Source: Jeotgalibacillus malaysiensis (GTDB taxonomy: Bacteria > Bacillota > Bacilli > Bacillales > Jeotgalibacillaceae). Taken from it: DNA of 64,000 bases. The DNA lies in NCBI GenBank assembly GCA_000818095.1, contig CP009416.1:2898501-2962500 (forward strand). Reading direction: 5' to 3'. Shown here piece by piece: positions 5,310 through 57,455 of the stretch. Numbering within the stretch: the first letter of the stretch is position 1; the number at the start of each line of letters is the position of its first letter. Below the pieces are notes generated by a model that saw only the letters and a list, made by a program, of their open reading frames with translations, did no database searches and was not told the DNA's origin. A program made the position numbers and the translations under genes.

Positions 5310-5417
5310 GTTGTAGCATTCCCTGCGCAGGTTGTAGCGATACACCCGGGTGTTTGTTGTTATTCAACTCCAGATTGTTGCAATGGCCCACCCGGGTTGT
5401 CCCAATCCGTATCCAGC
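5310..5417. repeat. 21-bp phased array A (TTGT motif)
   Basis: TTGT or TTGTTG motifs begin at 5311, 5332, 5354, 5375 and 5397, steps of 21-22 bp, with unrelated sequence between. The second unit holds GTAGCGATACACCCGGG, an element also seen in arrays B, C and H. The array fills the space between the terminator of the next gene and the Mhq-type promoter. Confidence 0.75.
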
Positions 5418-5447
5418 CTGTAATCTGTCACCACCATCACCTGACAC

Positions 5448-5481
5448 AAAAAACCTTCCCACCTTTTGAAAGATGGGAAAG
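5448..5481 (-). terminator. Intrinsic terminator of the orphan membrane-protein gene
   Basis: CTTTCCCATCTTTC pairs with GGTGGGAAGG and is followed by TTTTTTG on the minus strand. Confidence 0.75.
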
Positions 5482-5486
5482 CTATT

Positions 5487-6281
5487 TCACTCCACATCCC
5501 GAAACCTGAACATAGACTCATAATAGTGCGTGCGAATATCCGTCTTAAAAGAAGATCTGCTCCAAACATTTGAACGATCATTGGTTTCTTCTGTCTCAAC
5601 TAACCTCAGCTCACCACCGTCAAGGGTCATAATATTAGACTCAACTATTTTTAATTCATTCTGATTGGCATCTAATGCACGAATCCTTACCTGTACCTCT
5701 TTCTCTTCATCGAGGTTATTTTTCACATAAAAGTAATTGCTGTATTCCTCATTATAACAACTTGATGTTTGCCTTCTGAGACATTCCTGCTCTGAATTCA
5801 TGAAAAGAACGCTCACTTCTTCATTCGTTTCTTCTTCTGAAAGTGCCTCAATCGCCTTATCTAATTTGTACGTGTAAGACGCCTTTTGTCCAAGAGGAAA
5901 AACCCAGGTTCCGAAAAACAGAATAACGAAACAAAATACTCCTGTAAAAATCCATATAGCCTTAGGGTTATGAAAGGATTTAGGCGCACCTTTGTACTTA
6001 ATGCTCACAATAATATTGATAATGGCGAAGAAAAGCAGAAAAGCTCCCGCCATGATGAACACAACCATCAGTTCAAATGAATTTTGAAAGAATGGAAGGT
6101 GATAAAAGTTGTAAAAATAAGTATTCACTATAACACTGATTAAAATGAGTGAGAGGAAAAGAATCCCTGGCTTTTTCCACTCAATTTTTTCCCGTTTTCC
6201 ATTTTTCACATCCACTGAACTCCAGAGCATCCAGATAAAAGGCAGGAGAAAAATAATAATGACTGTTGCAATAATACCCAT
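5487..6281 (-). CDS. Uncharacterised membrane protein with an extracytoplasmic C-terminal domain
   Basis: I do not recognise this protein. From the preferred ATG (MGIIATVIIIFLLPFIWML, nine bases after AAAGG) it has about 264 residues. Four hydrophobic segments lie near 2-20, 40-57, 68-92 and 110-130, followed by a soluble domain of about 130 residues. That domain holds a Cys pair (ECLRRQTSSC) and is otherwise rich in Glu and Asn. In-frame codons further upstream exist but lack a ribosome binding site. It stands alone between two terminators, flanked by phased arrays A and B. The base composition is more AT-rich than that of its neighbours. Confidence 0.7.
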   Translation of the reverse strand: MGIIATVIIIFLLPFIWMLWSSVDVKNGKREKIEWKKPGILFLSLILISVIVNTYFYNFYHLPFFQNSFELMVVFIMAGAFLLFFAIINIIVSIKYKGAPKSFHNPKAIWIFTGVFCFVILFFGTWVFPLGQKASYTYKLDKAIEALSEEETNEEVSVLFMNSEQECLRRQTSSCYNEEYSNYFYVKNNLDEEKEVQVRIRALDANQNELKIVESNIMTLDGGELRLVETEETNDRSNVWSRSSFKTDIRTHYYESMFRFRDVE

Positions 6282-6459
6282 TGTATTCATCCTTTCTGAC
6301 GATAGATTGACAGCTAATTTAAATGCATATACAACTACTCCCCAAAGGATAGATACCTTATTTTTACATTGATTAAACAACAAATAAGGAATTTTAAGTA
6401 AATTTAGCAGCCCTGCTAAATGATATCAAATACTGTATGTATTAGCAATTCAAGGAAAA

Positions 6460-6491
6460 GGGATAACTTCAATATATATTGAAATTATCCC
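6460..6491. terminator. Long AT-rich hairpin
   Basis: GGGATAA and TTATCCC enclose TTCAATATATATTGAA, giving a nearly perfect 32-nt hairpin with T-rich tracts on the plus-strand side. It could be a back-up terminator between the mccB transcript and the upstream region of the orphan membrane-protein gene. Confidence 0.45.
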
Positions 6492-6505
6492 TTCTTCTTC
6501 TCAGG

Positions 6506-6611
6506 TTGACCCGATACACCCGTGGATTTGTTGCAATTCCGTGCTAATTTGTCTCTTTACCCCCATAATTTGTTGCTATCTTGCGCCTGCTTGTACCTTT
6601 TCCGCTTAAAA
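6506..6611. repeat. 21-bp phased array B (TTGT motif)
   Basis: TTG/TTGT motifs start at 6506, 6528, 6549, 6570 and 6591 (steps 22, 21, 21, 21). The first unit contains CGATACACCCG as in array A. It lies downstream of the mccB terminator. Confidence 0.75.
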
Positions 6612-6658
6612 CCACCGCAATCCCCAACCGACTCTCAGCCCCCAGCAGCATCAACACG

Positions 6659-6684
6659 AAAAAACCGCCCCAATCAAGGAGCGG
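6659..6684 (-). terminator. Intrinsic terminator after mccB
   Basis: CCGCTCC and GGGGCGG pair around a TTGATT loop, followed by TTTTTTC on the minus strand, ten bases past the mccB stop. Confidence 0.85.
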
Positions 6685-6694
6685 CTTATCGCTA

Positions 6695-7840
<1,146 letters not shown>

Positions 7841-8761
7841 TTAACCACCTTCATATATATTCTGACTCAGGTACCGTTCACTGCTATCTGCAAATACAGT
7901 GACAATATGGCTGCTTTTTTCAGCTGATTCCGCTTCCTTCAGTGCCGCATGAAATGCTGCACCGGAAGAGCTGCCGACAAGCAGTCCTTCTTTTAGAGCC
8001 AGTTCTTTTACCCAGTAAAAAGCGTCCTTATCATCTACCGTGTGAATCGCATTAAAAAGTTCGCGATCCATATACTCAGGAAGAAATTCCATTCCGATTC
8101 CTTCTGTCTTATGCGGACCAGACTCTCCGCCATTAATCGTTGAGCCCTCAGGTTCTACGATCACCGTTTTAATCTCAGGATTTTGATCCTTTAAGTAACG
8201 GGCATTTCCCATAAATGTACCGCCCGTTCCTGCTCCGGCTACGAAAATATCAATCTTACCGTCCATGTCACGCCAGAGCTCAGGACCCATCGTTTTATAA
8301 TACGTCTCAGGGTTGGCAGGGTTACCGAACTGCGCCGGGGAAAATGAACCAGGCGTCTCGCGCACTAGCTCTTCAGCTTTTGCGATCGCACCCTTCATTC
8401 CCTCAGCAGTCGGTGTATTTACAACCTCTGCGCCAAGTGCGCGCATGAGCGTCTGCTTTTCGACACTGAATTTTTCAGGTGTCACAAAAATCACCTTAAA
8501 GCCGCGCCCGACAGCTGCAAGTGCAACACCGATGCCTGTATTTCCGGCAGTCGGTTCGATAATCGTGCCGCCTTCTTTTAGCTCACCGCGTTTCAGTGCG
8601 TCTGCAATGAGCTCCATGCCAAGGCGGTCTTTCACGCTCCCGCCCGGATTAAAATACTCCAGTTTCGCAAAAATCCGGCATTCGTTTGGAACCGGAATGC
8701 CGGAGATTTCTACGACCGGCGTATTGCCGATCAGTTCGTGCACGCTTTTTGCCACGTTCAT
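7841..8761 (-). CDS. mccA: Cystathionine beta-synthase-type enzyme MccA (CysK-like)
   Basis: A 306-residue fold-type II PLP enzyme. The PLP lysine is in NPGGSVKDRLGM near residue 43, the asparagine loop is EPTAGNTGIG near 68, and the phosphate loop is GAGTGGTFMG near 176. It joins homocysteine with O-acetylserine (or serine) to give cystathionine. It lacks the CBS regulatory domain, as B. subtilis MccA does. The ATG directly follows the luxS stop, with its GAGGAAG site inside luxS, so the two genes are translated from one message. O-acetylserine sulfhydrylase (CysK) is the look-alike; pairing with mccB favours MccA. Confidence 0.9.
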   Translation of the reverse strand: MNVAKSVHELIGNTPVVEISGIPVPNECRIFAKLEYFNPGGSVKDRLGMELIADALKRGELKEGGTIIEPTAGNTGIGVALAAVGRGFKVIFVTPEKFSVEKQTLMRALGAEVVNTPTAEGMKGAIAKAEELVRETPGSFSPAQFGNPANPETYYKTMGPELWRDMDGKIDIFVAGAGTGGTFMGNARYLKDQNPEIKTVIVEPEGSTINGGESGPHKTEGIGMEFLPEYMDRELFNAIHTVDDKDAFYWVKELALKEGLLVGSSSGAAFHAALKEAESAEKSSHIVTVFADSSERYLSQNIYEGG

Positions 8762-9235
8762 TTATGCTTCCTCACCAAAAACATCTTTCCACTCATCGCG
8801 CTTTGCAAGCATATCAGCAGCAATTTCCTTGGCACCTTCAAGGCTGTGATTCGCTGCCCATCCGCACTGAACTTCGTTGCACGCCGGTACTTCATCAGCT
8901 TGTAGTACATCGTTCAGCGTTGCTTCGATTGCGTTAAGAATTTCATCATAGTTATCGTGGTTGAGCACTGCAAGGTAGAATCCTGTCTGGCAGCCCATCG
9001 GTCCGATATCCACTACGTTATCGAGGTGATTACGGATATTTTCAGCCATTAAATGCTCAATTGAATGAAGACCGTCCATTTTCATGTGCTCTTTGTTCGG
9101 CTGCTTAAAGCGCATGTCATACTTATGAATCTCGTCGCCGTTCTGCCCTTTAGTCACGCCTACAAGACGTACATAAGGTGCTTTTACTTTCGTGTGGTCA
9201 AGATTGAAGCTTTCTACATTCATTTTCTTTGTCAT
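8762..9235 (-). CDS. luxS: S-ribosylhomocysteine lyase LuxS (AI-2 synthase)
   Basis: 157 residues, the usual length. Metal-binding [15 protein letters not shown] near residues 54-68 carries the HxxEH motif, and [10 protein letters not shown] holds the catalytic Cys near 84. LuxS splits S-ribosylhomocysteine into homocysteine and DPD, the precursor of autoinducer-2. The start is the ATG of [10 protein letters not shown], after AAAGGAGAG. Homocysteine made here can pass straight to MccA and MccB, encoded by the next two genes. In B. subtilis the corresponding slot is held by mtnN, and luxS lies elsewhere. Confidence 0.96.
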
Positions 9236-9328
9236 GTGAAATCTCTCCTTTGAAAGTGTGATTGTGTTTATCTTAACTGGTCTGGTGATGGGATGTACAG
9301 GGATTTCCATTGGTGTTTACATTATTTA

Positions 9329-9413
9329 GGCGTCACACCCGGGACGGAGTTGAGTGATTCATTTTTAGAATGATTCTAAAAGTGTCACAGTTAACTCCGT
9401 CCCCGCTGTGCTG
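9329..9413. repeat. About 80-bp palindrome with 7-1-7 core (family Q), copy 1
   Basis: Outer arms ACGGAGTT and AACTCCGT, inner core TTTTTAGAATGATTCTAAAA (9362-9381). Lies between yrrT and luxS, so it may form a strong hairpin in the yrrT-luxS transcript. Confidence 0.8.
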
Positions 9414-9424
9414 AACTATATTTA

Positions 9425-10060
9425 CTACTTCTTCACCGCATGAATCAGCCAGACGTATTCATTGAGTCTTGTAAATGATGTTGAAAACCCTGCCTCGTCC
9501 AGCAGTTCATTCATTACCGGGATGGTTGTATAGTATTCTCTTTTTAAATCTTCAAGCAGATTGTGATAGCCCTGCTGCTCAACTTTTTTCCACTGAGCAA
9601 GTTTAGCTTCTTCTGTTTCGAAGATGGTGTCTGCGAATACGATCTGTCCGCCTGCTTGCAGTTTGGATGAATAGATCTTTGCTGCTTTTGCTTTTTCCTC
9701 ATCTGTTAAATGATGAAAAGCGTAGGTGCTGACGAATGTTTCCGGCTGTTCGTTTAATTCGAATGCCAGAAAGTCTCCATCTGAAATATTCAAAGCAGGA
9801 AAACGTTCCTGCGTACGTATGCGCATGGCGTTGTTTGGCTCGTAGGCTGTGACGTTAAGGCCTTTGACCAGAAGCTTCTCAGTCAGGTTACCTGTACCGG
9901 GTCCGAATTCAAGCGTATGTCCACTGGCTTTGGCTGCTACTTCTTCAAGGATGGCGTCATAATGCTCGAACACTGCTGCATATTCTTCATCCTGTCCGCT
10001 GACTGATGCATCATAGCTATCTGCCCATTCATCAAATATCTCTACAAATTCGCGTCCCAT
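9425..10060 (-). CDS. yrrT: YrrT-type SAM-dependent methyltransferase
   Basis: About 211 residues of the class I methyltransferase fold: motif I LEFGPGTGNLTEKL near residue 46, acidic loop VTAYEPNN, and STYAFHHLTDEEK near 110. In B. subtilis yrrT heads the mtnN-mccA-mccB operon of the SAM-to-cysteine salvage route; its substrate is not established. The start is the ATG of MGREFVEIFDEW, nine bases after GGAGTG; a TTG 21 bp upstream is in frame but has no site. Here it precedes luxS, mccA and mccB, with a family Q palindrome in between. Confidence 0.85.
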   Translation of the reverse strand: MGREFVEIFDEWADSYDASVSGQDEEYAAVFEHYDAILEEVAAKASGHTLEFGPGTGNLTEKLLVKGLNVTAYEPNNAMRIRTQERFPALNISDGDFLAFELNEQPETFVSTYAFHHLTDEEKAKAAKIYSSKLQAGGQIVFADTIFETEEAKLAQWKKVEQQGYHNLLEDLKREYYTTIPVMNELLDEAGFSTSFTRLNEYVWLIHAVKK

Positions 10061-10129
10061 TTCGGGGTCCACTCCATTCAAAATTTATTATTCTTATCAA
10101 CATACTCGGAATTAACCGGGACGGTGATT

Positions 10130-10158
10130 ATAATATCAGAAATTGAATGGTTTGTCAC
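10130..10158 (-). promoter_or_regulatory. Probable sigma-A promoter of yrrT
   Basis: On the minus strand GTGACA (10153-10158) and TATTAT (10130-10135) are 17 bp apart. The IS150-type element ends 86 bp upstream, so this promoter survived the insertion. Confidence 0.55.
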
Positions 10159-10187
10159 GTGTATAATTTTGTATAAAAGGCACAGGG

Positions 10188-10243
10188 GGGACGGAGTTCA
10201 GTGCGCCACTTTTAGAATCATTCTAAAAATGAACCACACAACT
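10188..10243. repeat. Family Q palindrome copy 2, left part, cut by the IS
   Basis: GGGACGGAGTT, core TTTTAGAATCATTCTAAAA (10210-10228), then ACT, where the IS begins. The other arm (AACTCCGTCCCC) resumes after the IS at 11722-11744. Confidence 0.85.
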
Positions 10244-10273
10244 TGATGTGACCCCCAAAAGTTAGAGTTTTTA

Positions 10274-11089
10274 TTAAGCAGCCATTTGGCTGGTATGCAG
10301 ACGATATTGAACTGGACTCATGCCAGCCAACTTTTGTTTGATTCGATCATGGTTGTAATAATGGATATACGTTTCAATATCTTTTTTAAGTTCTTCGTAT
10401 GTGCGTAACTTCTCTCCATAATACATTTCCTGTTTTAGTAAACCAAAAAAGTTCTCCATAAGGGCATTGTCGATACAATTTCCTTTTCGGGACATACTTT
10501 GAAATACCTTTTGCCCTTTCAGGGCCTTGACCCATGTATAGTGCTGATAATGCCATCCTTGATCAGAGTGAATAGTTGTACGGTATTTTGCATACTTTAC
10601 AAGGTTCAGAGCTTCTTCTAATGGTTTCATAACGAAATCCAATGTCGGATGTTGACTGACGCCAAATGAAATCACTTCACTATTATGCATATCCAGGATA
10701 GGGCTCAGGTACAACTTTCCGCCACCTAAGCATTTGAATTCAGTAATATCGGTTGCCAGCTTTTGAAGAGGATGAGCTGTTTGAAAACGGCGATTCAACC
10801 TGTTCTTGGCCACGTTACCTACGGTACCTTTGTAAGAGCTATAGCTTCTAGATTTCCTTCTGAACTTTAAGCCTTTTAAGCCAAGCTTTTTCATAATCCG
10901 TTGAACCTTTTTATGATTGATGATCAGCCCGTCACTCTTTAGTGCCGCCTGGACTCGACGGTACCCATAGTTGCCATTGTGGGCATCGAAGATGAATCGA
11001 ATCTGATCTTCAAGCTCCTGATCCGGATTAACATCATGCATCCGTTTAATATGATAATGATAGGAAGCTTCAGGAATGCCTACAACCAT
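10274..11089 (-). CDS. IS150-type transposase OrfB (DDE integrase domain)
   Basis: A 271-residue OrfB with an rve-type core. The catalytic residues are in LATDITEFKC (Asp), TTIHSDQGWHYQ (Asp) and NFFGLLKQEMYYG (Glu). An N-terminal HTH_21 stretch, YGYRRVQAALKSDGL, is present. The frame stays open upstream of the ATG into the end of orfA, so the working enzyme is most likely an OrfAB fusion made by -1 frameshifting. Confidence 0.92.
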   Translation of the reverse strand: MVVGIPEASYHYHIKRMHDVNPDQELEDQIRFIFDAHNGNYGYRRVQAALKSDGLIINHKKVQRIMKKLGLKGLKFRRKSRSYSSYKGTVGNVAKNRLNRRFQTAHPLQKLATDITEFKCLGGGKLYLSPILDMHNSEVISFGVSQHPTLDFVMKPLEEALNLVKYAKYRTTIHSDQGWHYQHYTWVKALKGQKVFQSMSRKGNCIDNALMENFFGLLKQEMYYGEKLRTYEELKKDIETYIHYYNHDRIKQKLAGMSPVQYRLHTSQMAA

Positions 11090-11100
11090 TAATACATCCT

Positions 11101-11667: not shown

Positions 11668-11721
11668 ATAAATGCACCCCTAAAGTTAGTTTTTGAACTC
11701 TAACTTTAGGGGTGCACCACA

Positions 11722-11744
11722 ACTCCGTCCCCACTGTGCCGCTT
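11722..11744. repeat. Family Q palindrome copy 2, right arm
   Basis: ACTCCGTCCCCACTGTGCC completes the palindrome interrupted by the IS. Confidence 0.8.
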
Positions 11745-15608: not shown

Positions 15609-15724
15609 CTTGCTCACTCCGTTTCGCTCAATTAATAACTTATCTATTATAAAAGAGGGCGGGTGTAAAATGCAATGGAAGTTGTCGGGGCTGCAAGAGA
15701 AAAATTCGGGTTTTCTTTCATAAC

Positions 15725-15852
15725 GCTGACCCTTTCCGCAGGGGACTGCGCTTTCCTGCCCCCGGGCGGTGAGCCTCCTCAGCTTCGCTTGCGGGGTCTC
15801 ACCTGTCCCTTTTCTGGGGCGGGAGTCTCCGTCCCCCGCGGAAAGGGTCAGC
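15725..15852. repeat. Family P palindromic repeat, copy 3
   Basis: Arms CTGACCCTTTCCGC and GCGGAAAGGGTCAG, with central GAGCCTCCTCAGC and GCGGGGTCTCACC. Upstream of ywiB. Confidence 0.85.
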
Positions 15853-15984
15853 TGAGTGTCTATTGATCTACTGCTTATTTAATTGAAATTTTCGCGAATA
15901 TCTTATCCGTTCACTTCAATGCTATCCGCTTCATGCCTTTTAGAAAATAAAAACCTGTTATCCATAAGCATTAAGAGGATCTGG

Positions 15985-16111
15985 TGAATGCAGGACGCGC
16001 GGGATTGAATGTCATATTATTGCTGTTGAATGACGTATGGGCGCGATTGATGTAGCGATACACCCGGATTGAGTGCTGTGAAAAGTCCAGCGAGTGTTGT
16101 GACAACCAGCT
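15985..16111. repeat. 21-bp phased array C (TTGA motif)
   Basis: TGAATG/TTGA motifs fall at 15985, 16006, 16027, 16048, 16070 and (as GAGTG) 16092. One unit carries TGTAGCGATACACCCGG as in arrays A and H. It lies between ywiB and the speB end. Confidence 0.72.
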
Positions 16112-18735: not shown

Positions 18736-20133
18736 ATAAGGGTCTTGCAGCTTGCTCTGCTCAGTATGATTGCGTTTGTATTTTTATGGGGTGCGTCGGT
18801 TACTGTGCTGTACCTTTACGCTAAAACGACCGGGCCTCCTTCTATTGCCGTTACGCAGTCGACGCTGCTTCTCCGCCCTCAGAGTTTCTTGGAGCCGCCC
18901 CATTTTTCCAGGAGGCTGTTTGGAAGGAGCTTGAGTCAATTGATCTTGAGCCCTACTATCTGAAATATGGCGGGCTGAAAATTTATACAATGCTTGATAC
19001 AGACCTGCAGGAAATTGCCGATGAGGTTGTAAAAGAAAATATGCCTGATACTGAACTAGAAGTTGCATTTGCTGCAATTGATCCTGACAGTGGTGAAGTG
19101 AAGGCGATGACTGGTGGGAGGGATTTTGAGAAGAGTCCGTTTACCCGTGTCACGCAGGCGCTCAGGCAGCCCGGTTCTACGATGAAACCGATTCTTTACA
19201 GTGCAGCGCTTGAAAAAGGCTTCACACCGGCTACGACAATGCGCAGTGAGCCGACTACTTTTACCTATGATGAAGGCAGAAGTGAATATGCACCGCAAAA
19301 TTTTAATCAGAAGTATGCAAATGATGCAATCACGCTTGCTCAGGCAATTGCCATTTCAGATAATATCTACGCTGTAAAAGCGCATGAGTTTTTAGGTAGC
19401 AGCGTATTGAAAAGTCAGGCGAAGGAATTTGGCTTGAGTACGCCTGTGCAGGAGGTTCCTTCTGCCGCACTCGGCACGTCTGAAGCAGTCCCGCTTGAGC
19501 TGTTTAATGCTTATTCCGTTTTTGCAAATGGCGGGAAAAAGGTTAAGCCTATGCTGATCAGAAAGATTGAAGAGCCAGATGGTGAAGTGATTTATGAGAA
19601 GAAAAAATGCAAAGTGTGTGATTGATGAGCAGCAGGCGTTTGTCATGACGCATATGCTGACAGGAACGTTTGATCCGGCTTTAAATGATTATTCCACTGT
19701 GACCGGGATTACACTTCTAGATGAAAAAACGCGTGAGTACGCTGCAAAATCCGGTACAACTGACACAGATCAGTGGATAATCGGTTTTTCACCGGCGCTC
19801 ACTGCAGGCGTCTGGACAGGCTATGATGATGCACGGACATTGACGCTCACAGAAGATAAGCAGGCTGCAAAATGGATCTGGCTTAGATTTATGGAGCGGG
19901 CGCATGCAGAACAGCCAGAGGAGTTTTTCGTCCCTCCCCCCGGCGTAACTGCCGTTCAGATGGACCCACACACAGGCCTTTTAGCTGGAGAATCTTGCGG
20001 AAAACGGACTGCCTACTTTGTAGAAGCAACAGCACCTGTAGAGGACTGCGATGGAAATGCGGTGCCACCTGGTGAGCCTGTCAACGGACACACAGAGGAT
20101 GAAAACTGGTTTAAGAAATGGTTTATGGAATAA
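18735..20133 (+). pseudogene. pbpG: Broken class A penicillin-binding protein (pbpG-like)
   Basis: Three fragments of one high-molecular-weight PBP. First: a basic stretch and membrane anchor (LLSMIAFVFLWGASVTVLYL, 18730-18860). The whole glycosyltransferase domain, roughly 200 residues, is then missing, with a frame change at about 18865-18895. Next comes a transpeptidase domain with the serine motif GSTMKP (near 19175) and SDN (near 19360). A second frameshift in an A6 run at about 19600 is followed by the rest, with the KSGTT motif near 19750 and the C-terminal tail. The original start is gone: the 5' end is fused to repeat copy 6. In B. subtilis pbpG (sporulation PBP 2d) sits next to speE, so position supports the identity. 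It is unlikely to make a working enzyme. Confidence 0.88.
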
Positions 20134-21370: not shown

Positions 21371-21386
21371 GGCGCTACCGCGCATA

Positions 21387-21530
21387 GGTCAAATGACATG
21401 AAGCGTCGAAGGTTGCATGTTAAGTGGCGAACCAGCCGTATTTACTGTCGAACACTATGTGTTTACCGTCGAACAAGGCTGGTTTACCTTCGAACATGCC
21501 ACGTTTAACGCCGAACCACACACAACCCCT
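21387..21530 (+). repeat. 21-bp phased array D (GTCGAAC motif)
   Basis: CGAA occurs at 21407, 21428, 21449, 21470, 21491 and 21512, six units with an exact 21-bp step. A second weaker motif TTTAC or TTTAA sits about 14 bases into most units. A leader GGTCAAA has its CAAA at 21390, 17 bp before the first CGAA, as in arrays E and J. Lies between the convergent ywhB and fruA. Confidence 0.88.
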
Positions 21531-25302: not shown

Positions 25303-25357
25303 CTGAGTGGTCATCTTAAATTCTGTTTGTTTTAAAGTTGTTTGTAGCATAAGGGGT

Positions 25358-25505
25358 GGGTCAAATGGCCCGAAATGTCGAAGTTTATGCTGCAAGTATC
25401 GAACCACCTGGTTTATCCGTCGAACATCGGATATTTCCCGTTGAACCAAACATATTTCCCGGCGAACACACGCCTGCATACGTCGAACCACCTTGCGCCC
25501 AGCAC
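25358..25505 (+). repeat. 21-bp phased array E (GTCGAAC motif)
   Basis: CGAA or TGAA falls at 25379, 25400, 25421, 25442, 25463 and 25484, exact 21-bp steps. The leader GGGTCAAATGG has CAAA at 25362, 17 bp before the first unit, as in arrays D and J. Lies between the fru promoter region and the ywgA terminator. Confidence 0.88.
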
Positions 25506-28533: not shown

Positions 28534-28655
28534 GAAAAGCGGAAGCAGGCGTTCAGGTCCGACAAGCATAAGACGCGGAGCGAAAAAACGGGTGGTTTTC
28601 CCGTTTATCGATGCGTGACTTATGACTCGAGGGCCTGCCTGCTGGAGCTGGAGTT
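28533..28655. repeat. Post-stop hairpin repeat (family S), copy 1
   Basis: Starts at the last base of the rsfA stop codon: GAAAAGCGGAAGCAGGC, TCCGACAAGCATAAGACGC, a hairpin AACGGG/CCCGTT, then CTTATGACTCGAGGGCCTGC. The two ends pair with each other. Confidence 0.85.
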
Positions 28656-28699
28656 GGACACAACAGGAAAGAAAAAAGCTGAGTCGGAAAATGCGGATG

Positions 28700-28885
28700 G
28701 CGGATGTGACCCGAAATCAGGTGAATGTGACCCGAAAAACATCGGGTGTGACCTGAAAATTGGGGGACCTGACCCCAAAATGGAGATTTTGAAAAAACGT
28801 GACCTGAAAATTTTTGAAGGTGTCCCGAGATTTTCAGAAGGTGATCGCAAAATTATCGACCGTGACCCGAAAACGTCAGACCCCG
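28700..28885 (+). repeat. 21-bp phased array F (GTGACCCGAAA motif)
   Basis: TGAC-type motifs at 28707, 28728, 28749 and 28770, then one 30-bp step to 28800, then 28821, 28842 and 28863. The seed GTGACC(C/T)GAAA is longer than in other arrays. It lies between the convergent rsfA and lipL, directly after a family S repeat. Confidence 0.85.
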
Positions 28886-29977: not shown

Positions 29978-31063
29978 ATGAAAAAAGCATGGTATCTATT
30001 TGGTCTTGCTCTGATTCTTGCAATCTTAACGGCTTGCGGAAATTCAGGGGAAGAAGAAACAACAGAAGAAAACGGTTCTACAGACGATTCTGCAGCAACT
30101 GAGGAATCAGCTGGAGAAGTTAACCTTTATACAGGTCGTCACTATGAGACAGACCAGGCCCTTTATGATCAGTTCACAGAAGAAACTGGCATTGAGGTTA
30201 ATGTCATTCAGGGTAAAGATGATGAGCTAATAGCACGTCTTGAGCGTGAAGGTGTCGCATCTGAAGCTGACGTATTCATGACAGCTGATGCAGGCCGTCT
30301 GCACCGCGCGAAAGATCTTGAGCTGCTTCAGTCAATTGAAAGCGATACGTTAAATGAAAATATCCCGGAAAACCTTCGCGACACTGATAACCAGTGGTAC
30401 GGCTTAACAAAGCGTGCACGTGTGATCGTATATGATCCGGAAAAAGTTGACGCTGAAGAAATCCAGACTTATGAGTCACTAACTGAAGAAGACATGGCAG
30501 GCCGCGTGCTGATCCGTTCTTCTGAAAACATCTACAACCAGTCACTTGTTGCATCTATGATCTCACTAAACGGTGAAGACGCTGCAAAAGAATGGGCTGA
30601 AGGCATCGTAAACAACATGGCACGCGATCCTGAAGGCGGAGACCGCGACCAGGCCAAAGGAATCGCTGCCGGTGAAGGTGATGTAGCTGTTATGAACACT
30701 TACTACCTTGGTCAAATGCTGAATTCTGAAGATGAAGAAGAAGTAAAAGTTGCTGAAGGTCTTGAAGTTGTATTCCCTAACCAGGACACTACAGGTACAC
30801 ACGTCAACATCAGTGGTGCCGGCGTAACAGCAAGCAGCAAAAACACAGAGAATGCTCAGAAGTTCATCGAATTCCTATCTTCTGAAGCTGCACAGGCAGA
30901 ATTCTCTGAAGCAAACTATGAGTACCCTGCAAACCCTAATGTTGAAGCATCAGAGCTTCTTCAAAGCTGGGGCGAGTTCAAAGAGCAGGATATCAACCTG
31001 ACTGAACTTGGTGAAAACAATGCACGCGCCCTTCAGATTATGAATGAAGTTGGCTGGAAATAA
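29978..31063 (+). CDS. fbpA: Ferric-iron ABC transporter binding lipoprotein (FbpA/FutA-like)
   Basis: 361 residues from the ATG of MKKAWYLFGLA, after AGAGGAGTG. Lipoprotein signal ending ILTAC, an acidic linker, then a periplasmic-binding-protein fold of the Fe3+ type: VNLYTGRHYETDQALYDQF near 45 and the Tyr pair in AVMNTYYLGQML near 233, which ligates iron in this family. It delivers ferric iron to FbpB and FbpC, encoded downstream. Controlled by Fur boxes and followed by a strong hairpin, so it is probably made in excess over the permease. Confidence 0.93.
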   Translation: MKKAWYLFGLALILAILTACGNSGEEETTEENGSTDDSAATEESAGEVNLYTGRHYETDQALYDQFTEETGIEVNVIQGKDDELIARLEREGVASEADVFMTADAGRLHRAKDLELLQSIESDTLNENIPENLRDTDNQWYGLTKRARVIVYDPEKVDAEEIQTYESLTEEDMAGRVLIRSSENIYNQSLVASMISLNGEDAAKEWAEGIVNNMARDPEGGDRDQAKGIAAGEGDVAVMNTYYLGQMLNSEDEEEVKVAEGLEVVFPNQDTTGTHVNISGAGVTASSKNTENAQKFIEFLSSEAAQAEFSEANYEYPANPNVEASELLQSWGEFKEQDINLTELGENNARALQIMNEVGWK

Positions 31064-31072
31064 GAATAATGG

Positions 31073-31109
31073 AGCTGTATCGCCTGGTTTCAGGTGATGC
31101 AGCTTTTTT
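31073..31109 (+). terminator. Terminator between fbpA and fbpB
   Basis: AGCTGTATCGCCTG pairs with CAGGTGATGCAGCT, followed by TTTTT. It lowers or stops read-through into fbpB, which has its own Fur box. Confidence 0.85.
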
Positions 31110-31275
31110 ATGTCACCTTTTGTGAGATATCCATCACCTTTTTGCTTATTTAACTCACCTTTTAAATTTTTCGCCAGCTGAAGTCTGCCTCCCTCATTTT
31201 TACGTCACCTCTGGAGATTTATCTATCATCTCCACACTTTTTCTAATCACCTTTTCATTTTTTCTCCACCACACC
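31110..31275 (-). repeat. 21-bp phased array G (GGTGA motif on the minus strand)
   Basis: TCACC-type motifs (GGTGA on the minus strand) at 31113, 31134, 31155, then after a 50-bp step at 31205, 31226 (TCATC) and 31247. It lies between fbpA and fbpB. From 31276 to 31380 nothing else is recognised. Confidence 0.75.
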
Positions 31276-33865: not shown

Positions 33866-33884
33866 GTGGGGTGGAATGGGGGTG

Positions 33885-34005
33885 TGACAGCATTCAATTT
33901 AGAAGTCAGTTCACTCAGCTGTTGTTCTACTGCACTCAATCGGCTTTTTACTGCACTCAACCCGGGTGTATCGCTACCTCAAGTCACTGAATACACCCCT
34001 CAACA
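33885..34005 (-). repeat. 21-bp phased array H (TTGA motif on the minus strand)
   Basis: CATTCA or CACTCA at 33891, 33912, 33933 and 33954, then CCTCAA at about 33977 and 33998. Read on the minus strand these are TTGA(G/A)TG units, and one contains GTAGCGATACACCCGGG as in arrays A-C. Lies between the convergent fbpC and pta. Confidence 0.8.
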
Positions 34006-34032
34006 CGAAACGTCCAACATTTCATCCGTATG

Positions 34033-41938: not shown

Positions 41939-42110
41939 AAAAGCGAAAGGCGCTTGTTCAGCTCCGACAGACATAAGACGCGGAGCGGAAAACGGGTGGT
42001 TTGTCCCGTTTACCGATTCGTGGCTTATGATCCGAGGAGCTAGCGCCTGCAGCTGGATCAAGTAGAAAAGCGTAAGCAGGCGTTTAGGTCGTGGGGCAAG
42101 TCCAGCTGCT
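41939..42110. repeat. Post-stop hairpin repeat (family S), copy 2 plus a truncated copy
   Basis: GAAAAGCGAAAGGCGC, ACATAAGACGCGGAGCGG, a hairpin ACGGG/CCCGT and GTGGCTTATGATCCGAGG, ending about 42057. From 42063 a second start GAAAAGCGTAAGCAGGCG is cut off after about 45 bp. Confidence 0.83.
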
Positions 42111-42112
42111 AT

Positions 42113-42330
42113 TTGGAAGTGACCCGAGAATTGGTGAAGGTGAACCGAGATCATGCATACCCGACCCGAGAAACTGAGTTCTAATCGGATATGACCCGAG
42201 ATTTCGTAAAGGTGACCCGAAAATGCTCGAATCCGACCTGAAAATCACTCGAGGTGACCCGAAAATGCTCGAATCCGACCTGAAAATCACTCGAGGTGAC
42301 CCGAAATCCAGAATCCGCCCGAAACCACAT
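42113..42330 (+). repeat. 21-bp phased array I (GTGACCCGAAA motif) with a perfect 42-bp duplication
   Basis: TGAC or CGAC motifs at 42121, 42142, 42163, then a 30-bp step to 42193, then 42214, 42235, 42256, 42277 and 42298. Within it 42213-42254 and 42255-42296 are identical 42-bp units. It lies between the convergent bshB2 and the sugar kinase gene, right after a family S repeat, as array F does. Confidence 0.9.
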
Positions 42331-49152: not shown

Positions 49153-49322
49153 GTGGGGGTGTGGCGGTGTTCGTAGATTTCTGGTGGTGTTCGACACTTA
49201 ACTTGCCGGGTTCGGGGTATAGATGATGATGTTCGTCTTTTAACTCGGCTTGTTCGCTACTTGTCCTGTATGGTTCGACGTTTAAACGTCTATGTTCGAC
49301 ACTTAGGGACCTTTGACCTACC
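49153..49322 (-). repeat. 21-bp phased array J (GTCGAAC motif on the minus strand)
   Basis: TTCG (CGAA reversed) at 49170, 49190, 49211, 49232, 49253, 49274 and 49295: seven units, steps of 21 with one of 20. The leader appears reversed as TTTGACC with TTTG at 49312-49315, again 17 bp from the first unit. Lies between tdh and the peptide ABC operon terminator. From 48991 to 49152 nothing else is recognised. Confidence 0.88.
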
Positions 49323-49352
49323 CACCTCATACACTTACAGTCCTCGATACAT

Positions 49353-51452: not shown

Positions 51453-51481
51453 GTGATCACCCCTCATTTCATTTAAAAATC

Positions 51482-52432
51482 TTAGTTCAGATCTATACGT
51501 TTATTCAGGAATCTGTAAGAAATATCAACAAGTAAGTTTACGAGTACGAACAGAACGGATATAACAAGTACTGTACCCTGTACAACCGGGAAGTCACGCT
51601 GTCTGATCGCATCAATTGTCAGACGGCCCATTCCGTTGATTGCAAAGATTGTTTCAGTCAGTACCGTTCCGCCAAGAAGGGCACCGAATTCAAGACCAAC
51701 AACTGTTACAACAGGAATCAATGCATTTTTAAGTGCGTGCTGATAAACAACAACGCGCTCTTTCACACCTTTTGCACGGGCTGTACGGATATAATCCTGA
51801 CTGATGACTTCAAGCATACTTGAACGGGTCATACGGGCAATAATCGCTGCCCCTGCTGTACCAAGTGTAATAACCGGCAAAACAACCTGTTTCCAGCTAT
51901 CGCCCCAGCCGGATGCACGCATCTGGAGAAACGGCTGCAGTGACTCCGGTATCCAGTTACCGATTGCAAACCACTGAATCAGCATAAGTCCAAGCCAGAA
52001 GTTCGGCATTGAAAGTCCAAACAGCGCCACAATCATGATTACTACGTCTGTTACTGTGTAGTGACGTACTGCAGATACGATACCTGCAATCAGTCCCATA
52101 AATACACTTAATATTGTACTGTATACGGCCAGTTCAACCGTTACCCAGAAACGGGCACCAATCTCATCTGCAACAGGACGGCTGCTTCGTACTGAAGTAC
52201 CGAGGTCACCCGTTACAACATTTCCAAGAAACGTACCGTACTGTACATGTAAAGGATCATTTAAACCAAGTCTTTCACGAATCTGTTCAACCTGACGTTC
52301 AGGTGCGGCTTCACCAGCGATAATCTGTGCCGGATCACCCGGAATCAGGTGCATCAGAGAGAATACTAATATCGTAACCCCAAGTAAAACGGGGATCGTC
52401 TGAATTAAACGACGGATAATAAATTTCGTCAT
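51482..52432 (-). CDS. Peptide ABC transporter permease (OppB/DppB type)
   Basis: 316 residues with six membrane segments. The N-terminal [35 protein letters not shown] and the EAA loop [20 protein letters not shown] near 215 mark the B-type subunit. Encoded after the C-type subunit gene, the reverse of the usual B-then-C order. Start after GGAGGTG. Confidence 0.93.
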
Positions 52433-52448
52433 ATCAAAGCACCTCCAG

Positions 52449-53342
52449 TTATTGTTTCATTTTCGGATCAAGTGCGTCGCGGATTCCATCACCAAAGATG
52501 TTGAAAGCAAGTACGACAAGCACAATCATCATGCCAGGGAAAAAGGCTACGTGCCATGCATCATAGATGTAGTCACGACCTTCAGACAGCATCGCACCCC
52601 ACTCAGGCATTGGAGGCTGCGCACCAAGACCAAGGAATGAAAGACCGGCAGCCGTTAATACTGCAGTCGCAATACGAAGTGTCGCCTGAACAATAATCGG
52701 AGACATAACGTTTGGCAGGATGTGACGAAAGATAATTCTGAAATCTGTTGCGCCAAGTGCCCGAACCGCGTCTATGTATTCAAGCTTCTTCACTGAAAGC
52801 GTTGAACCACGGACAATACGCGCAAATGCCGGAACAGAGAAAATACCAACTGCAATGATTACGTTTTGAAGACTTCCTCCGAGTACACTTACAATTGCAA
52901 GTGCAAGAAGAATACCTGGGAACGCAAGCAGAACATCCATAATTCTCATGATTACGTTATCGATCCGTCCGCCGTAATAACCGGAAATAATGCCAAGCGG
53001 TACGCCTACAACCAGACCGATAATAACTGAAAGGAAACCAACATAAAGCGTTATTCCCATTCCATGTATAATCCGCGTAAAAATATCTCTTCCAAAGTTA
53101 TCCGTACCAAACCAATATTCAGCAGAAGGACCTGCAAGTTTATTGGCGATATCTGTTGCGTTTGGCGACTTAGACAGAAGCATCGGACCAAAAATCGCTA
53201 CAACAATGAAAAAGACAATTAAATATCCGCCGATCAATGCTGCTTTATTCTTTTTAAGCCGCTTCCAGATCATTTTATAGTTTTCTATTCTGGGATTGAC
53301 CTTCTTAGCAGTAACCGGATGGTTAACCGTATTTTCACTCAT
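52449..53342 (-). CDS. Peptide ABC transporter permease (OppC/DppC type)
   Basis: 297 residues. The OppC_N stretch (YKMIWKRLKKNKAALIGGYL), six membrane segments, GTDNFGRDIFTRIIHGM near 75 and the EAA loop EYIDAVRALGATDFRIIFRH near 190. First gene of the minus-strand transporter operon and divergent from the binding-protein gene. Confidence 0.93.
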   Translation of the reverse strand: MSENTVNHPVTAKKVNPRIENYKMIWKRLKKNKAALIGGYLIVFFIVVAIFGPMLLSKSPNATDIANKLAGPSAEYWFGTDNFGRDIFTRIIHGMGITLYVGFLSVIIGLVVGVPLGIISGYYGGRIDNVIMRIMDVLLAFPGILLALAIVSVLGGSLQNVIIAVGIFSVPAFARIVRGSTLSVKKLEYIDAVRALGATDFRIIFRHILPNVMSPIIVQATLRIATAVLTAAGLSFLGLGAQPPMPEWGAMLSEGRDYIYDAWHVAFFPGMMIVLVVLAFNIFGDGIRDALDPKMKQ

Positions 53343-53950
53343 TTTTTACACCCTCTCTTTTACATATAAATCGTTTTGTAAAGTAATAGGAAAGAACTTT
53401 ACGCACCTCAACAATATTAACGTATTTTCAACAAAAATGAAACTATTCTAATATCTTTTTTTATGAAATGATTTGCATAAAATCGGCAATGAAAATTTTC
53501 GTAAGGATAATAATCCCACATTGTTGATATTAGAATAATTTTATCTAATTCTAATATTTTATTTACATGTTTTCGCGTGCTTTAATCTATACACTTCAAG
53601 GGTTGTCGTGACTTACTAAATTTTCAGTTATATATTTTCTGTGCAGTTTTTTTCGCTAAATTTTCTGCGTATAAAGCGAATTATTCCGTCTTTCAAGTAC
53701 AAAAGCCTGTCCGGCAAATTCATTATTTTAGCAGAGCAACGCTTTAAAGCTAAAACCGATTGTATAAATTATATTAATATAATTATAAGATTTTCCAATA
53801 TCATGAACATCCCGTGATATTCTTTTAAATACAAATGAAACTATTTTTACACGCTTGTAATATTTCAAAATTTGCGATATATTATTTTTTGAATATTGCG
53901 CTTTGTGCGTACATTTCAGATTGACTATCTAAATATGGGGGGTAATTTTT
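53343..53950. promoter_or_regulatory. 600-bp AT-rich divergent control region of the peptide transporter
   Basis: No gene is seen. Three copies of the 10-mer ATTCTAATAT occur: 53445-53454 (+), 53527-53536 (reversed) and 53548-53557 (+). The last two form an inverted repeat with an 11-bp gap. A perfect palindrome ATTATATTAATATAAT is at 53768-53783. CodY-box-like starts AATTTTCAG and AATTTTCTG lie near 53619 and 53656, each matching only the first part of the consensus. A strong GGGGGG site precedes the binding-protein start. Confidence 0.55.
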
Positions 53951-55585
53951 TTGACAAGTAAAAAAACGCTTTGGGCATTTTTACTAACGCTTGTACTTGC
54001 AATGTTCCTAGCAGCATGTGCCGGTGGAAGCGACGACGCTGATTCAGGCGACGGCGGTTCTACTGACGACGGCGGTTCAGAAACAGAAGATGGCGCTACT
54101 GCTGAAGGCGGTTCAGGCGGCGACCTAATGCTGAATGTTCTATCTGATGCTTCATCACTTGATCCACACGGTTCAAACGATGTTCCTTCATCAAACATTC
54201 AGGCTAACATCTACGAAACACTTGTATTCCAAAATGCAGATAACGAAATTGAGCCACTACTGGCTGAATCTTGGGAAGCTGTAGACGACCTTACTTGGGA
54301 GTTCAAGCTTCGTGAAGACGTAACATTCCACGACGGTTCAGCATTCAACGCTGAAGTTGTAAAAGCTAACCTTGATCGCGTACTTGATCCTGATGTAGCT
54401 TCACCACGTGGTTTCCTTTATGAAATGATCACTGAAGTAAACGTAATCGATGAGTACAATGTACAAATCGTTACTGAATATCCATTTGCTCCACTACTTG
54501 CTCACCTTTCACACAGCGGTGGCGGTATGATCTCTATGGACGCAATTGAAGCAGATTACGCAGCAATGGAAGAAGGTTCTGAGCCAGGTTCTGTTATCGC
54601 ACAAGAGCCGGTTGGTACTGGATTCTTCAAATTCGAAAGCTGGACTCCTGGTGAAGAAATCGTTCTTTCAAACAACGAAGAGCACTGGGATGGCGGAGCA
54701 CAGGTTGATACTGTAACATTCCGCGTTGTTCCTGAATCAGGTACACGTGTAGCTGAACTTGAAACAGGTAACGCACACATTATCGATCCACTTCAGCCAA
54801 ACGAAGTTTCACGTGTTGATAACCTTGATAATGCATCTGCACAAATCCAGGGATCAACTTCACTTTCTTACCTAGGATTCAACATGGAGCAGGAGCCATT
54901 TGACAACCAGCAGGTACGTCAGGCGATCTCTATGGCAGTTGATAAAGCTTCAATCATTGAAGGTATCTATGAAGGATACGGTGTTCCTGCCGTAGGTCCA
55001 ATCCCTCCAGGCGTATTCGGTTATGACGAAAGTGTTGAACCACTTGAGTACAACATGGACGAAGCAAGAGCACTTCTTGAAGAAGCTGGCTTCGCTGATG
55101 GATTCTCTACTACAATCATGACAAACGATAACCCACAGCGTGTTGACACTGCTGTACTTGTTCAGGAAGCACTTGCTGAACTGAACATTGATGTTGAAAT
55201 TGAAGTTGTTGAATTTGGTTCATTCCTAGATGAAACTGCTGCGGGTAACCACGACATGTTCATCCTTGGATGGTCAACTCCAACAGCCGATGCTGACTAT
55301 GCAACATATGCACTATTCCACTCTTCTCAGGTTGGAGCACCGGGTAACCGTTCATTCCTACAGGATGACGAAGTTGACTCACTACTTGACCAGGGACGTC
55401 AGGAAACTGACCAGGACGCTCGTGCTGAGATCTACTCACAGCTTCAGGAACGTCTTGTAGAAGTGGCACCAATGGTTTACATTCACCACCAGGAATACCT
55501 GACTGGTGTAAGCGATAATGTATCTGGATTCTCTACACTTCCAAATGGTCTTTATCAGCTTAAAGATGTAACAATCTCTGAGTAA
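53951..55585 (+). CDS. Peptide ABC transporter substrate-binding lipoprotein
   Basis: 544 residues from a TTG start eight bases after GGGGGGT. Lipoprotein signal LAMFLAAC, a Gly/Ser/Asp linker to about 60, then an SBP_bac_5 domain with SDASSLDPHGSNDVPSSN near 65, LREDVTFHDGSAFNAE near 118, PVGTGFFKFESWTPGEE near 220 and MAVDKASIIEGIYEGYG near 330. It captures peptides (or similar, such as glutathione or nickel complexes) for the divergent permease operon. Codons strongly favour high-expression forms. Confidence 0.92.
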   Translation: MTSKKTLWAFLLTLVLAMFLAACAGGSDDADSGDGGSTDDGGSETEDGATAEGGSGGDLMLNVLSDASSLDPHGSNDVPSSNIQANIYETLVFQNADNEIEPLLAESWEAVDDLTWEFKLREDVTFHDGSAFNAEVVKANLDRVLDPDVASPRGFLYEMITEVNVIDEYNVQIVTEYPFAPLLAHLSHSGGGMISMDAIEADYAAMEEGSEPGSVIAQEPVGTGFFKFESWTPGEEIVLSNNEEHWDGGAQVDTVTFRVVPESGTRVAELETGNAHIIDPLQPNEVSRVDNLDNASAQIQGSTSLSYLGFNMEQEPFDNQQVRQAISMAVDKASIIEGIYEGYGVPAVGPIPPGVFGYDESVEPLEYNMDEARALLEEAGFADGFSTTIMTNDNPQRVDTAVLVQEALAELNIDVEIEVVEFGSFLDETAAGNHDMFILGWSTPTADADYATYALFHSSQVGAPGNRSFLQDDEVDSLLDQGRQETDQDARAEIYSQLQERLVEVAPMVYIHHQEYLTGVSDNVSGFSTLPNGLYQLKDVTISE

Positions 55586-55597
55586 TCAGATATGATG

Positions 55598-55636
55598 AAA
55601 CCCCTGTCCGGCTTGGTCCGGATGGGGGTTTTTTGT
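55598..55636 (+). terminator. Terminator of the binding-protein gene
   Basis: AAACCCCTGTCCGG pairs with CCGGATGGGGGTTT, followed by TTTT. Confidence 0.88.
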
Positions 55637-55700
55637 TGGTAGATTTTGTGGTAGTCGGCTGCAGTTGTGGCGGGATGGGTGCGTGGCGGGTGGCGCGGGT

Positions 55701-55790
55701 GTGACGGAATTCCTTCATTTGGGGAGTTATTGCTTCAATTTGGATTTTATCGCTTCAATTCTGTATGTAATTCACTCAATCCCGGTTCGG
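55701..55790 (-). repeat. 21-bp phased array K, left part, cut by an IS
   Basis: CTTCA or ACTCA motifs at 55713, 55733, 55753 and 55774 (steps 20, 20, 21); on the minus strand these read TTGAAG/TTGAGT. The IS starts at 55791. Confidence 0.72.
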
Positions 55791-55977
55791 CCCCCTAATG
55801 TTGGACACGATTTGTTTTGTTGTTGAAAGAATTTTAGCACATTCCAAACTGATGATAAAACTTGGTACTAAGGCTTCAACGGCCTTGTCTTCGTACTTAG
55901 GTGATCAGAGAAGGTTTTTTAAGGCTGACCTCACAGTGATCAGCCATTATCATCGCTTGACCAGATACAATCATCTC

Positions 55978-56922
55978 CTAGAGATTGATTGAGAAGGCAG
56001 TACAATTGTTTTTAACTGCTTCGAAGAATTTCTTCGGTGACAGATTGCCAAGGCTGCCGTGCGGTCTGCGTTCGTTGTAAAATTTCACATAGTCGTTGAT
56101 ATAGTATATCGCATGATCGAACGTCACCAGCTCAACCTCGTGACGAACTATACACTCACGTTGTAACTGGCTGTGATATGACTCGATAAAGGCATTCAGG
56201 TTGGGAGATGCATTCGGTATACGCTCATGGTAAAGACCATGAAACGCGCAATATTTCGCAAAACTGTGACTGATAAACTGTGGTCCATTGTCTGTACGGA
56301 TGATCAGTTTCTGCTCACCACTCCCTGGCTTCAGATGCACCTTGCGTCGTAAGATGGCTTTCATCACCGTCCGCATTACGTCTTCAGACCTGCAGGTCCT
56401 TCCGCAATAATACCCGACGATCTGTCGGTCGTAGACATCGATAACGTTACACGTCATCAGAAAGAACCCAGCTTCTTTTAAGGGGACATATTTGATGTCC
56501 ATCTGCCAAAGTTGGTTAACGGCTGTCACGCTCCGGTTTCTCGCGAGTTGGCGCTTAGGACGGTTGGTCTTACTTCGTTTTTTTAATACGCCGAGCTCCT
56601 TACAAAGTCGATAGACTTTTTTGGCATTGATCACTAACTTCCTCTCTGTCCTCAAGAGGATACCCCACTTTCGATAGCCTAGACCTCCGATCAAATCGTC
56701 TTCGCTGAACTCACAGAGAAACTCTTTAATCTCTTCATCAGAGACTGGCGTGCCATCTAAAGTGTATGAGACCCCTGGAAAGGGTCGTCCTCTCTTCTTC
56801 ATCTGGATGTTCCCTCCCATCATCAATTGATAGTAGTAGGTCGAGCGGCCAAGTCCGAGTATTGAAAGAACTCTCTTAGCCTGGAAGCCTTGGTCGATCC
56901 ATTGTTTTGCGATCTCATGCAT
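55978..56922 (-). CDS. IS3-family transposase OrfB
   Basis: 314 residues. An HTH_21 domain (SEDDLIGGLGYRKWGILL) and an rve core with DDE residues in LWQMDIKYVPL, IIRTDNGPQFISH and NAFIESYHSQLQREC. The reading frame is open into the end of orfA. Different from the IS150-type OrfB elsewhere in the window. Confidence 0.92.
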   Translation of the reverse strand: MHEIAKQWIDQGFQAKRVLSILGLGRSTYYYQLMMGGNIQMKKRGRPFPGVSYTLDGTPVSDEEIKEFLCEFSEDDLIGGLGYRKWGILLRTERKLVINAKKVYRLCKELGVLKKRSKTNRPKRQLARNRSVTAVNQLWQMDIKYVPLKEAGFFLMTCNVIDVYDRQIVGYYCGRTCRSEDVMRTVMKAILRRKVHLKPGSGEQKLIIRTDNGPQFISHSFAKYCAFHGLYHERIPNASPNLNAFIESYHSQLQRECIVRHEVELVTFDHAIYYINDYVKFYNERRPHGSLGNLSPKKFFEAVKNNCTAFSINL

Positions 56923-56930
56923 TTCTGATA

Positions 56931-57242
56931 TTAGTAAGGTCTTTTTTTTACAAGGTCTTTTAAGACCGCGATTTCCAACTCTTTCTCACCAAGCAGACGC
57001 ATCGCTCGTTCGTACTGCTGCTTGTAATAGTCACCCGATTTTTCAAGAGGAAGAACTTCCCCTGATTCCACCTCCGCCTCCATCTCTTCTCGGACTTCAT
57101 CTCCATACTCATTCATCCAAGCAGTCAAAGTACTACGATGAACGCCTGCTGTCTTGGCAGTTGTGACGATCTTGTTGGTCTCGAGTGCCATTCGGACATA
57201 TTTCTTTTTGATCTCTTCAAAAGCCTGAACCTTCTTTCGCAT
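56931..57242 (-). CDS. IS3-family transposase OrfA
   Basis: 103 residues with a helix-turn-helix (KIVTTAKTAGVHRSTLTAWM) and a C-terminal coiled coil (RAMRLLGEKELEIAVLKDLV). An A8 run on the minus strand (56942-56949) near its end allows a -1 shift into orfB to make the fused transposase. Confidence 0.9.
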   Translation of the reverse strand: MRKKVQAFEEIKKKYVRMALETNKIVTTAKTAGVHRSTLTAWMNEYGDEVREEMEAEVESGEVLPLEKSGDYYKQQYERAMRLLGEKELEIAVLKDLVKKRPY

Positions 57243-57321
57243 AAAAGTGCCCCCTTTCCTGTGGAGTCGTTTGATATCAGTGTAAATCCAACATCAATTC
57301 GTGTCCAAGGTATTAAGGGGG

Positions 57322-57455
57322 CTAGAAAGATCCTGCTTTTTATTCCTTCATTGATGGTGAGGTCGCTTTATTCCCTTCATATTCAGTATTAATTCCATCA
57401 GCAAGCTAAATATATCCTTCAACTATGTACACGATTCCCTCATCCTCCCTCCCCT
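57322..57455 (-). repeat. 21-bp phased array K, right part
   Basis: CTTCA-type motifs at 57346, then a 29-bp step to 57375, then 57396 (CATCA), 57417 and 57438 (CCTCA). Without the IS the step from 55774 to 57346 would be 41 bp, close to two units, so both parts are one array. Confidence 0.7.

Follow-up and report, generated by a model that had tools for sequence, protein, structure and literature searches.

What is repeated every 21 base pairs (bp) between the genes of Jeotgalibacillus malaysiensis? A 64,000-nucleotide stretch of this bacterium (here called the window; C1:2898501-2962500 of a 4.12-Mb genome in two contigs, the source genome G000) carries eleven intergenic arrays, A to K, in which a short motif recurs at that distance. 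The arrays are families of dispersed elements with a fixed architecture. The best reading, put forward tentatively and with somewhat less than even confidence, is that they are sets of binding sites on one helix face for a putative DNA-binding protein. Dispersed short repeats of bacteria are usually palindromes, hairpins or remnants of mobile elements, and this kind of element looks undescribed. The statement of an earlier note on this DNA that no named element resembles it has stood, in that none was recognised in a literature search that had most subscription journals outside its reach.

Period and architecture of the elements

The window has 15 clusters with at least 12 matched bases at lag 21, ten of which are arrays A to J. 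Four of the other five lie inside called genes (called by a simple codon-pair score) and one (58876-58913) lies in a gap. With 18 matched bases required, seven clusters remain at lag 21, while elsewhere in lags 15-30 there are four at lag 18, one at lag 20 and none at any other lag.

Three regions of the chromosome were compared: R1 (2.7-3.1 Mb, including the window), R2 (0-0.4 Mb) and R3 (1.5-1.9 Mb). In R1 and R2 the surplus at lag 21 is greatest in convergent and co-directional gaps, lesser in divergent gaps and slight in coding DNA. The lag-21 identities of 5-mers in R1 and R2 number 270 and 302 in co-directional gaps, against 55 (standard deviation (SD) 17-18) at other lags; 133 and 55 in convergent gaps, against 11 (SD 7) and 9 (SD 4); and 71 and 58 in divergent gaps, against 32 (SD 11) and 17 (SD 6). 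The corresponding coding values are 1043 against 870 (SD 66) and 866 against 749 (SD 57), the lags compared being multiples of three. The peak at lag 21 is thus present in the regions examined. In pooled intergenic sequence from nine stretches, which come from eight genomes of the genus that bear arrays, lags 21, 42 and 63 exceed the median of lags 8-99 by 18.9, 10.9 and 6.0 robust SD, showing that the family of 21-bp arrays is real, more strongly so than first claimed. Lags 10, 20 and 21 reach just 3.1, 3.3 and 3.7 robust SD in seven array-poor genomes.

Two classes of array, GTTC and GGTCA, were modelled. Chains of GTTC gave 28 arrays (15 in the source genome and 13 in five relatives) and chains of (G/A)GTCA gave 13 (11 in the source genome and two in G009). 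Steps of 21 bp dominate, as had been described: they make up 189 of the 219 steps in the two classes, the remainder being 12 of 30, 11 of 42, five of 20 and two of 22. The 42-bp steps represent a skipped unit in the GTTC class, those of the GGTCA class having been split beforehand into two steps of 21. Inserts of 29-30 bp had been ascribed to arrays F, G, I and K. In F and I the 30-bp step is a fixed feature of the GGTCA class; G has a larger central gap.

The number of units is fixed. After extension with one mismatch allowed, 22 of the 28 GTTC arrays have six units, three have seven, and one each has four, five and eight. They mostly start after a G-rich sequence and lead into a box near AGTGTAATTTGACCTA. 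Eight of the 13 GGTCA arrays have the step series 21, 21, 21, 30, 21, 21, 21, that is, four units, a 30-bp step and four more units; the same series is found in array F, which is outside this modelled set. Twenty GTTC elements can be aligned nearly without gaps over 147 columns, and 11 GGTCA elements, a set excised around the 30-bp step, over 188 columns. The features of a unit in these aligned paralogs vary with its position in the element.

Units belonging to one array resemble each other in the motif and not in the spacer. The identity of the motif extension in the 20 aligned GTTC elements is 0.596 within arrays and 0.411 between arrays, compared with 0.304 and 0.311 for the spacers. Spacers of different arrays are slightly more alike at equal unit positions (0.349) than at unequal ones (0.311). 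Tandem duplication alone therefore fails to account for arrays whose units have a common motif dialect but no common spacers, and the 21-mer copying mechanism proposed earlier is not the main cause, notwithstanding a perfect 42-bp block duplication in array I. At least one of the six reading frames is open in 36 of 41 arrays, as a period divisible by 3 would lead one to expect. Coding heptads were considered and rejected: column-shuffled arrays behave similarly (mean least number of stops 0.18 vs 0.12), and no coding claim is made.

Copy number, placement and retention

The source genome has at least 63 GTTC and at least 31 GGTCA copies. The GTTC model gave 67 rows after scoring 150 of 712 candidates, from which four were dropped (three overlapping rows on the opposite strand and a second fragment of J). 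The GGTCA model gave 33 rows from 150 of 809 candidates, from which two were dropped (a second piece of I and the weak match at G). As only part of the candidates were scored, both counts are lower bounds. All rows are on the main chromosome, C1, and none on the 0.6-Mb C2. The origin and terminus were placed from open reading frames at the start of C1, read from the sequence as dnaA, dnaN and recF, and from a reversal of the gene strand bias near 1.725 Mb. From origin to terminus the quarters contain 38, 40, 16 and 0 copies.

R1 and R2 contain 30 and 32 lag-21 clusters, and R3 has one, apparently a chance match. Intergenic DNA is scarcer in R3 too (35.8 kb, against 66 and 89 kb in R1 and R2), as are convergent gaps of at least 150 bp (7 vs 22 and 19). 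Two unrelated dispersed repeats are scarce there as well: a GCAGGCG-type element, which lies beside F and I (window 28534-28665), has 7, 7 and 0 loci in R1, R2 and R3, and another repeat, long and hairpin-like and lying close to C and E (window 15716-15860), has 34, 8 and 3. Because of this shortage of intergenic DNA and of unrelated repeats, exclusion from the terminus is not specific for function, and its value as proof of a nucleoid-occlusion role is weakened.

A gene 3' end adjoins every GTTC array that could be scored, namely the 27 of 28 with called genes on both sides, and 10 of the 13 GGTCA arrays, three of which face no 3' end. The earlier claim that every array has such a neighbour is accordingly true of the scored GTTC class and not of the GGTCA class. 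A simple rule predicts an intrinsic terminator between gene and array for 28 of the 37 GTTC facings and 8 of the 12 GGTCA facings, and this placement past terminators would fit the possible role of transcription-unit boundary that had been suggested. Relative to the nearest 3' end, 13 GTTC arrays are in sense and 14 in antisense orientation, and GGTCA arrays are divided six and four; an even division is expected for action at the level of DNA. Seven loci in other families were inspected by eye: L150, L154 and L155 follow a terminator, and none is clear at L147, L151, L152 and L153.

Retention in relatives had been proposed as a test, and it is seen in part. Ten loci were compared in the closest relative, G008, and lag-21 units are present at eight, F having just two units of a different class; H has no lag-21 run and I is empty. 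G006 has an array at four of the seven loci compared, G009 at two of eight and G010 at none of five. Locus I lacks an array in G008, G009 and G010, and locus F in G006, G009 and G010. The GGTCA model matched 33 rows in G000, 14 in G008, 12 in G011, 11 in G006, six in G007, two in G005, one in G004 and none in the other five genomes of the genus.

At the fruA-like locus next to array D the motif dialect changes between species. G000 and G011 have one dialect, G008 and G007 a second, G006 a third, and G004 and G009 a fourth; no array was found there in G001, G002, G003, G005 or G010. In the fruA tree G000 pairs with G008 (support 97/95) and G011 with G007 (100/100). Differences were counted in three element pairs taken as orthologs, D by position and two by similarity. 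They amount to 4/72 in the anchor, 33/180 in the extension and 32/126 in the spacer, so that motif columns (37/252) have changed less than spacers (32/126; Fisher p 0.016).

Binding sites, mobile repeats and known systems

Selection for spacing is well supported by the 21-bp phase, the nearly gap-free elements, the fixed number of units and the conserved motif columns. The phased binding platform suggested in the earlier note is partly upheld and remains the best reading. Each unit is a short asymmetric site, and since the sites recur every two helical turns, all lie on the same face of the helix; a 30-bp step amounts to nearly three turns. A sequence-specific protein might assemble on such an element into a multimer of defined size, acting in gaps that transcription seldom crosses, and might serve chromosome organisation or insulation. 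If so, the arrays would point to a kind of nucleoprotein structure so far unknown in ordinary bacteria, with dozens of copies per chromosome and look-alikes in several families of one order.

Several observations weigh against the binding of a protein. A candidate for it was not found. ParB-family genes number two in each of 12 genomes, the array-poor ones included, so that no extra ParB protein tracks the arrays. The unit consensus has no dyad symmetry in either modelled class (p 0.55 and 0.61), by which a whole-unit palindrome was rejected and a simple dimer operator is not indicated. The comparison of motif and spacer changes comprises only three pairs, picked as alignable. Finally, several dialects coexist in one genome and sister species differ at single loci, a diversity for which a single binder is not a simple explanation. 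The dialects are the least explained part of the system and pose a well-defined, testable question about how sites co-evolve; they could reflect one relaxed binder, paralogous binders or conversion of whole elements. A more ambitious form of the binding-site reading, in which the arrays would be chromosome-wide address strips (fixed one-faced sets of sites read by a multimer, with a dialect for each array, switching between sister species and avoidance of the terminus like that of nucleoid-occlusion sites), is regarded as quite unlikely.

The main rival, considered unlikely but well ahead of the others, is a non-autonomous dispersed repeat, similar to miniature inverted-repeat transposable elements (MITEs) or repetitive extragenic palindromic (REP) sequences, that persists only in transcription-free gaps and whose 21-bp units matter, if at all, for its own mobilisation. 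That three relatives lack an array at I and three of four lack one at F, that presence within the genus is patchy, and that the array type at D departs from the fruA tree are all consistent with mobility. G005, G006, G008 and G009 have local duplications of whole elements, at distances of about 190-240 bp, and depletion at the terminus is common to the two unrelated dispersed repeats. Nevertheless, three query elements had no near-identical copy at a separate locus: the best matches elsewhere were 73% over about 120 bases for I, 78% over 64 bases for the G008 array at D, and 75-78% over about 120 of 151 bases for D. Neither inverted ends nor target duplications were seen, though no systematic search was made for them, and the smaller change of motif columns than of spacers also speaks against such a repeat. 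If the elements are mobile, their architecture is still unusual.

Simple tandem duplication or slippage of 21-mers followed by decay is improbable. The 42-bp block repeat in array I and long arrays with higher-order repeats in G015 are what slippage would leave, but the fixed number of units and the spacer comparison given above largely refute it for the GTTC class.

A transcribed RNA element (a 3' untranslated region, terminator aid or Rho-loading site) would be in keeping with the position at gene 3' ends, and array D folds into a long imperfect hairpin (z -2.3). A general RNA hairpin model, prompted by that array, was ruled out by folding, flank pairing and RNAalifold. The mean folding z of the best strand is -0.93 for 41 arrays, with values below -3 in three of them, compared with -1.93 for 60 ordinary intergenic controls, which include terminators. 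RNAalifold gave 0 and 2 pairs for the two classes (one strand each), and there is no specific flank pairing in the GTTC class (p 0.49). As orientation is also random and the arrays lie mostly past predicted terminators, an RNA element is very improbable. The curated covariance models of Rfam found only a cobalamin riboswitch at gathering score in the window (3855-4040, minus strand, away from the arrays) and nothing on the arrays; for three element loci the only matches, two weak ones, stayed under that score (E 0.035 and 0.24).

Selection for an intrinsic bend in the DNA, which had also been suggested, deserves hardly any credence: the curvature of GGTCA elements is mild (mean z -3.7, n=10; chord ratio 0.84 vs 0.94 when shuffled), GTTC elements are not curved (mean z -0.6, n=27), and A-tract controls have chord ratios of 0.26-0.36 vs 0.84 and 0.93 for the elements, so curvature was rejected as a general feature.

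Three known systems invite comparison. Plasmid-origin iterons consist of a few direct repeats spaced by roughly two helical turns, at a single origin with a rep gene next to it. The arrays resemble them in the direct repeats and the spacing but are dispersed over at least 94 chromosomal loci, and among the families listed for ten window proteins scanned there was no match to a replication initiator, other neighbours not having been examined. REP sequences and bacterial interspersed mosaic elements (BIMEs) sit at gene 3' ends, as do the intergenic arrays (27/27 scored GTTC and 10/13 GGTCA). They are described as dispersed, multi-copy composites of regularly spaced small units, the REP units being palindromes in alternating orientation (PMC2817692). 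The array units are, by contrast, direct, non-palindromic and non-hairpin, with a strict 21-bp phase and a fixed number. Noc-binding sites (NBS), found in Bacillus and Staphylococcus, have another consensus, the palindromic 14-bp ATTTCCCGGGAAAT, whereas the arrays are multi-unit, asymmetric and phased at 21 bp. Twelve NBS-like sites with at most two mismatches occur in R1, R2 and R3, one of which (88022) is by its coordinates within a GGTCA array. Noc and SlmA sites are reported to be numerous, dispersed over the chromosome and largely absent around the terminus (PMC5540599). The arrays are similar in their dispersal and in having no copies in the terminus quarter, although that likeness is non-specific, and they differ from the Noc system in that the number of ParB-family genes does not track them.

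Distribution beyond the genus and arrays of the window

Similar 21-bp arrays occur patchily in other families. Of 249 genomes of the order, 12 have three copies of TTCNNGAA at 21 bp, vs 3 of 249 for the reversed control, although some of the 12 may be coding, for example G130 and G229 as judged by eye. GGTCAC three times at 21 bp is found in 9 of 249 vs 3 of 249, and four of the nine are within the genus. Among those outside it, G078 is like a shorter-period repeat and G138 is maybe coding, which leaves G015, G048 and G137, from three other families. A pattern scan of a genome collection, which is no measure of distribution, gave at least 117 stretches, 80 of them listed, and seven of the listed loci were inspected. 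Among the matches listed, GGTCAC at 21 bp also occurs in loci of Cytobacillus, Paucisalibacillus and Alicyclobacillus, and many matches are in GC-rich genomes and may be coding. The GTTC model, run over 150 genomes with at most 21 candidates scored per genome and apparently not every member of the genus included, matched strongly in G000 and G011 and weakly (E at least 2e-8) in 29 other matching genomes. In G173, of another family, the ten listed TTCNNGAA array loci leave 0.76-2.71 Mb empty on a contig of at least 3.6 Mb whose origin is unmapped. Array D had no match in a phage database, and array I had four partial Streptomyces matches in a plasmid database.

Longer arrays exist elsewhere. 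L155 and G015 C1:1000001-1080000 (L127-L130), in another family, have arrays that can reach 20 units or more, in steps of 19-21 and with repeats of higher order. Among 12 loci of a viral scan, L057 and L058 are long 21-bp arrays, L059 and L065 have four or five near-identical units, and the remaining loci are coding-like or simple repeats. The L057 array, on a GC-rich viral contig, contains the internal palindrome GAGACGTCTC, and roughly four bases of each unit vary.

The arrays of the window are listed in Table 1. Classes beyond the two modelled ones are TTGTAGC with its GATACACCCGGG unit, CACTCAA, TTAATTCYATCACC and ATTCCTTCAATC.

Table 1. Arrays A to K: window positions, strand where assigned, and description
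Array	Position	Strand	Description
A	5310..5425	.	TTGTAGC class; GATACACCCGGG in unit 2; aligns with the corresponding G006 locus
B	6504..6600	.	TTGTAGC class; past what looks by eye like a terminator of the minus-strand gene 6695-7834
C	15985..16110	.	TTGAATG/TTGAGTG units and a single GTAGCGATACACCCGG unit
D	21378..21523	-	Complete GTTC-class element (model match C1:2919879-2920021); 6 x 21 bp, five GTTC units, the last CTTC, then a terminal GACCTA box; stop of fruA-like gene on one side, terminator on the other
E	25352..25492	-	GTTC-class element (model match C1:2923852-2923992)
F	28696..28873	-	GGTCA class; 4 units, 30-bp step, 4 units (match C1:2927196-2927373)
G	31106..31260	+	TCACC class; 3 units, central gap, more units; weak GGTCA-model match, E 5.9e-5
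H	33881..34006	.	CACTCAA units and a single CCCGGGTGTATCGCTAC unit; terminator-like hairpin on both sides
I	42107..42306	-	GGTCA-class element; matches C1:2940607-2940748 and 2940735-2940806
J	49169..49323	+	GTTC-class element, 7 units
K1	55701..55784	.	CTTCAATT units; weaker, 11 matched bases
K2	57340..57460	.	Degenerate CC(T/A/C)TCA units, by eye; under the 12-base cluster threshold

Array G is preceded by a terminator-like hairpin that follows a gene ending at 31063. The two called genes at 18990-20133 are probably a single frameshifted gene, because both match one gene of about 2 kb in G008, G006, G009 and G010. Two genes between K1 and K2 (55978-57242), which have no ortholog in the compared stretches of the same four relatives, look like a candidate insertion sequence; in G008 the counterpart of this region is an array within a 395-bp gap between the flanking genes. 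Outside the window, near 19.5, 44.6 and 111.2 kb of G000 C1 (L024, L026 and L029), ATGCACTTGGGA-like units recur at 31-32 bp, about three helical turns.

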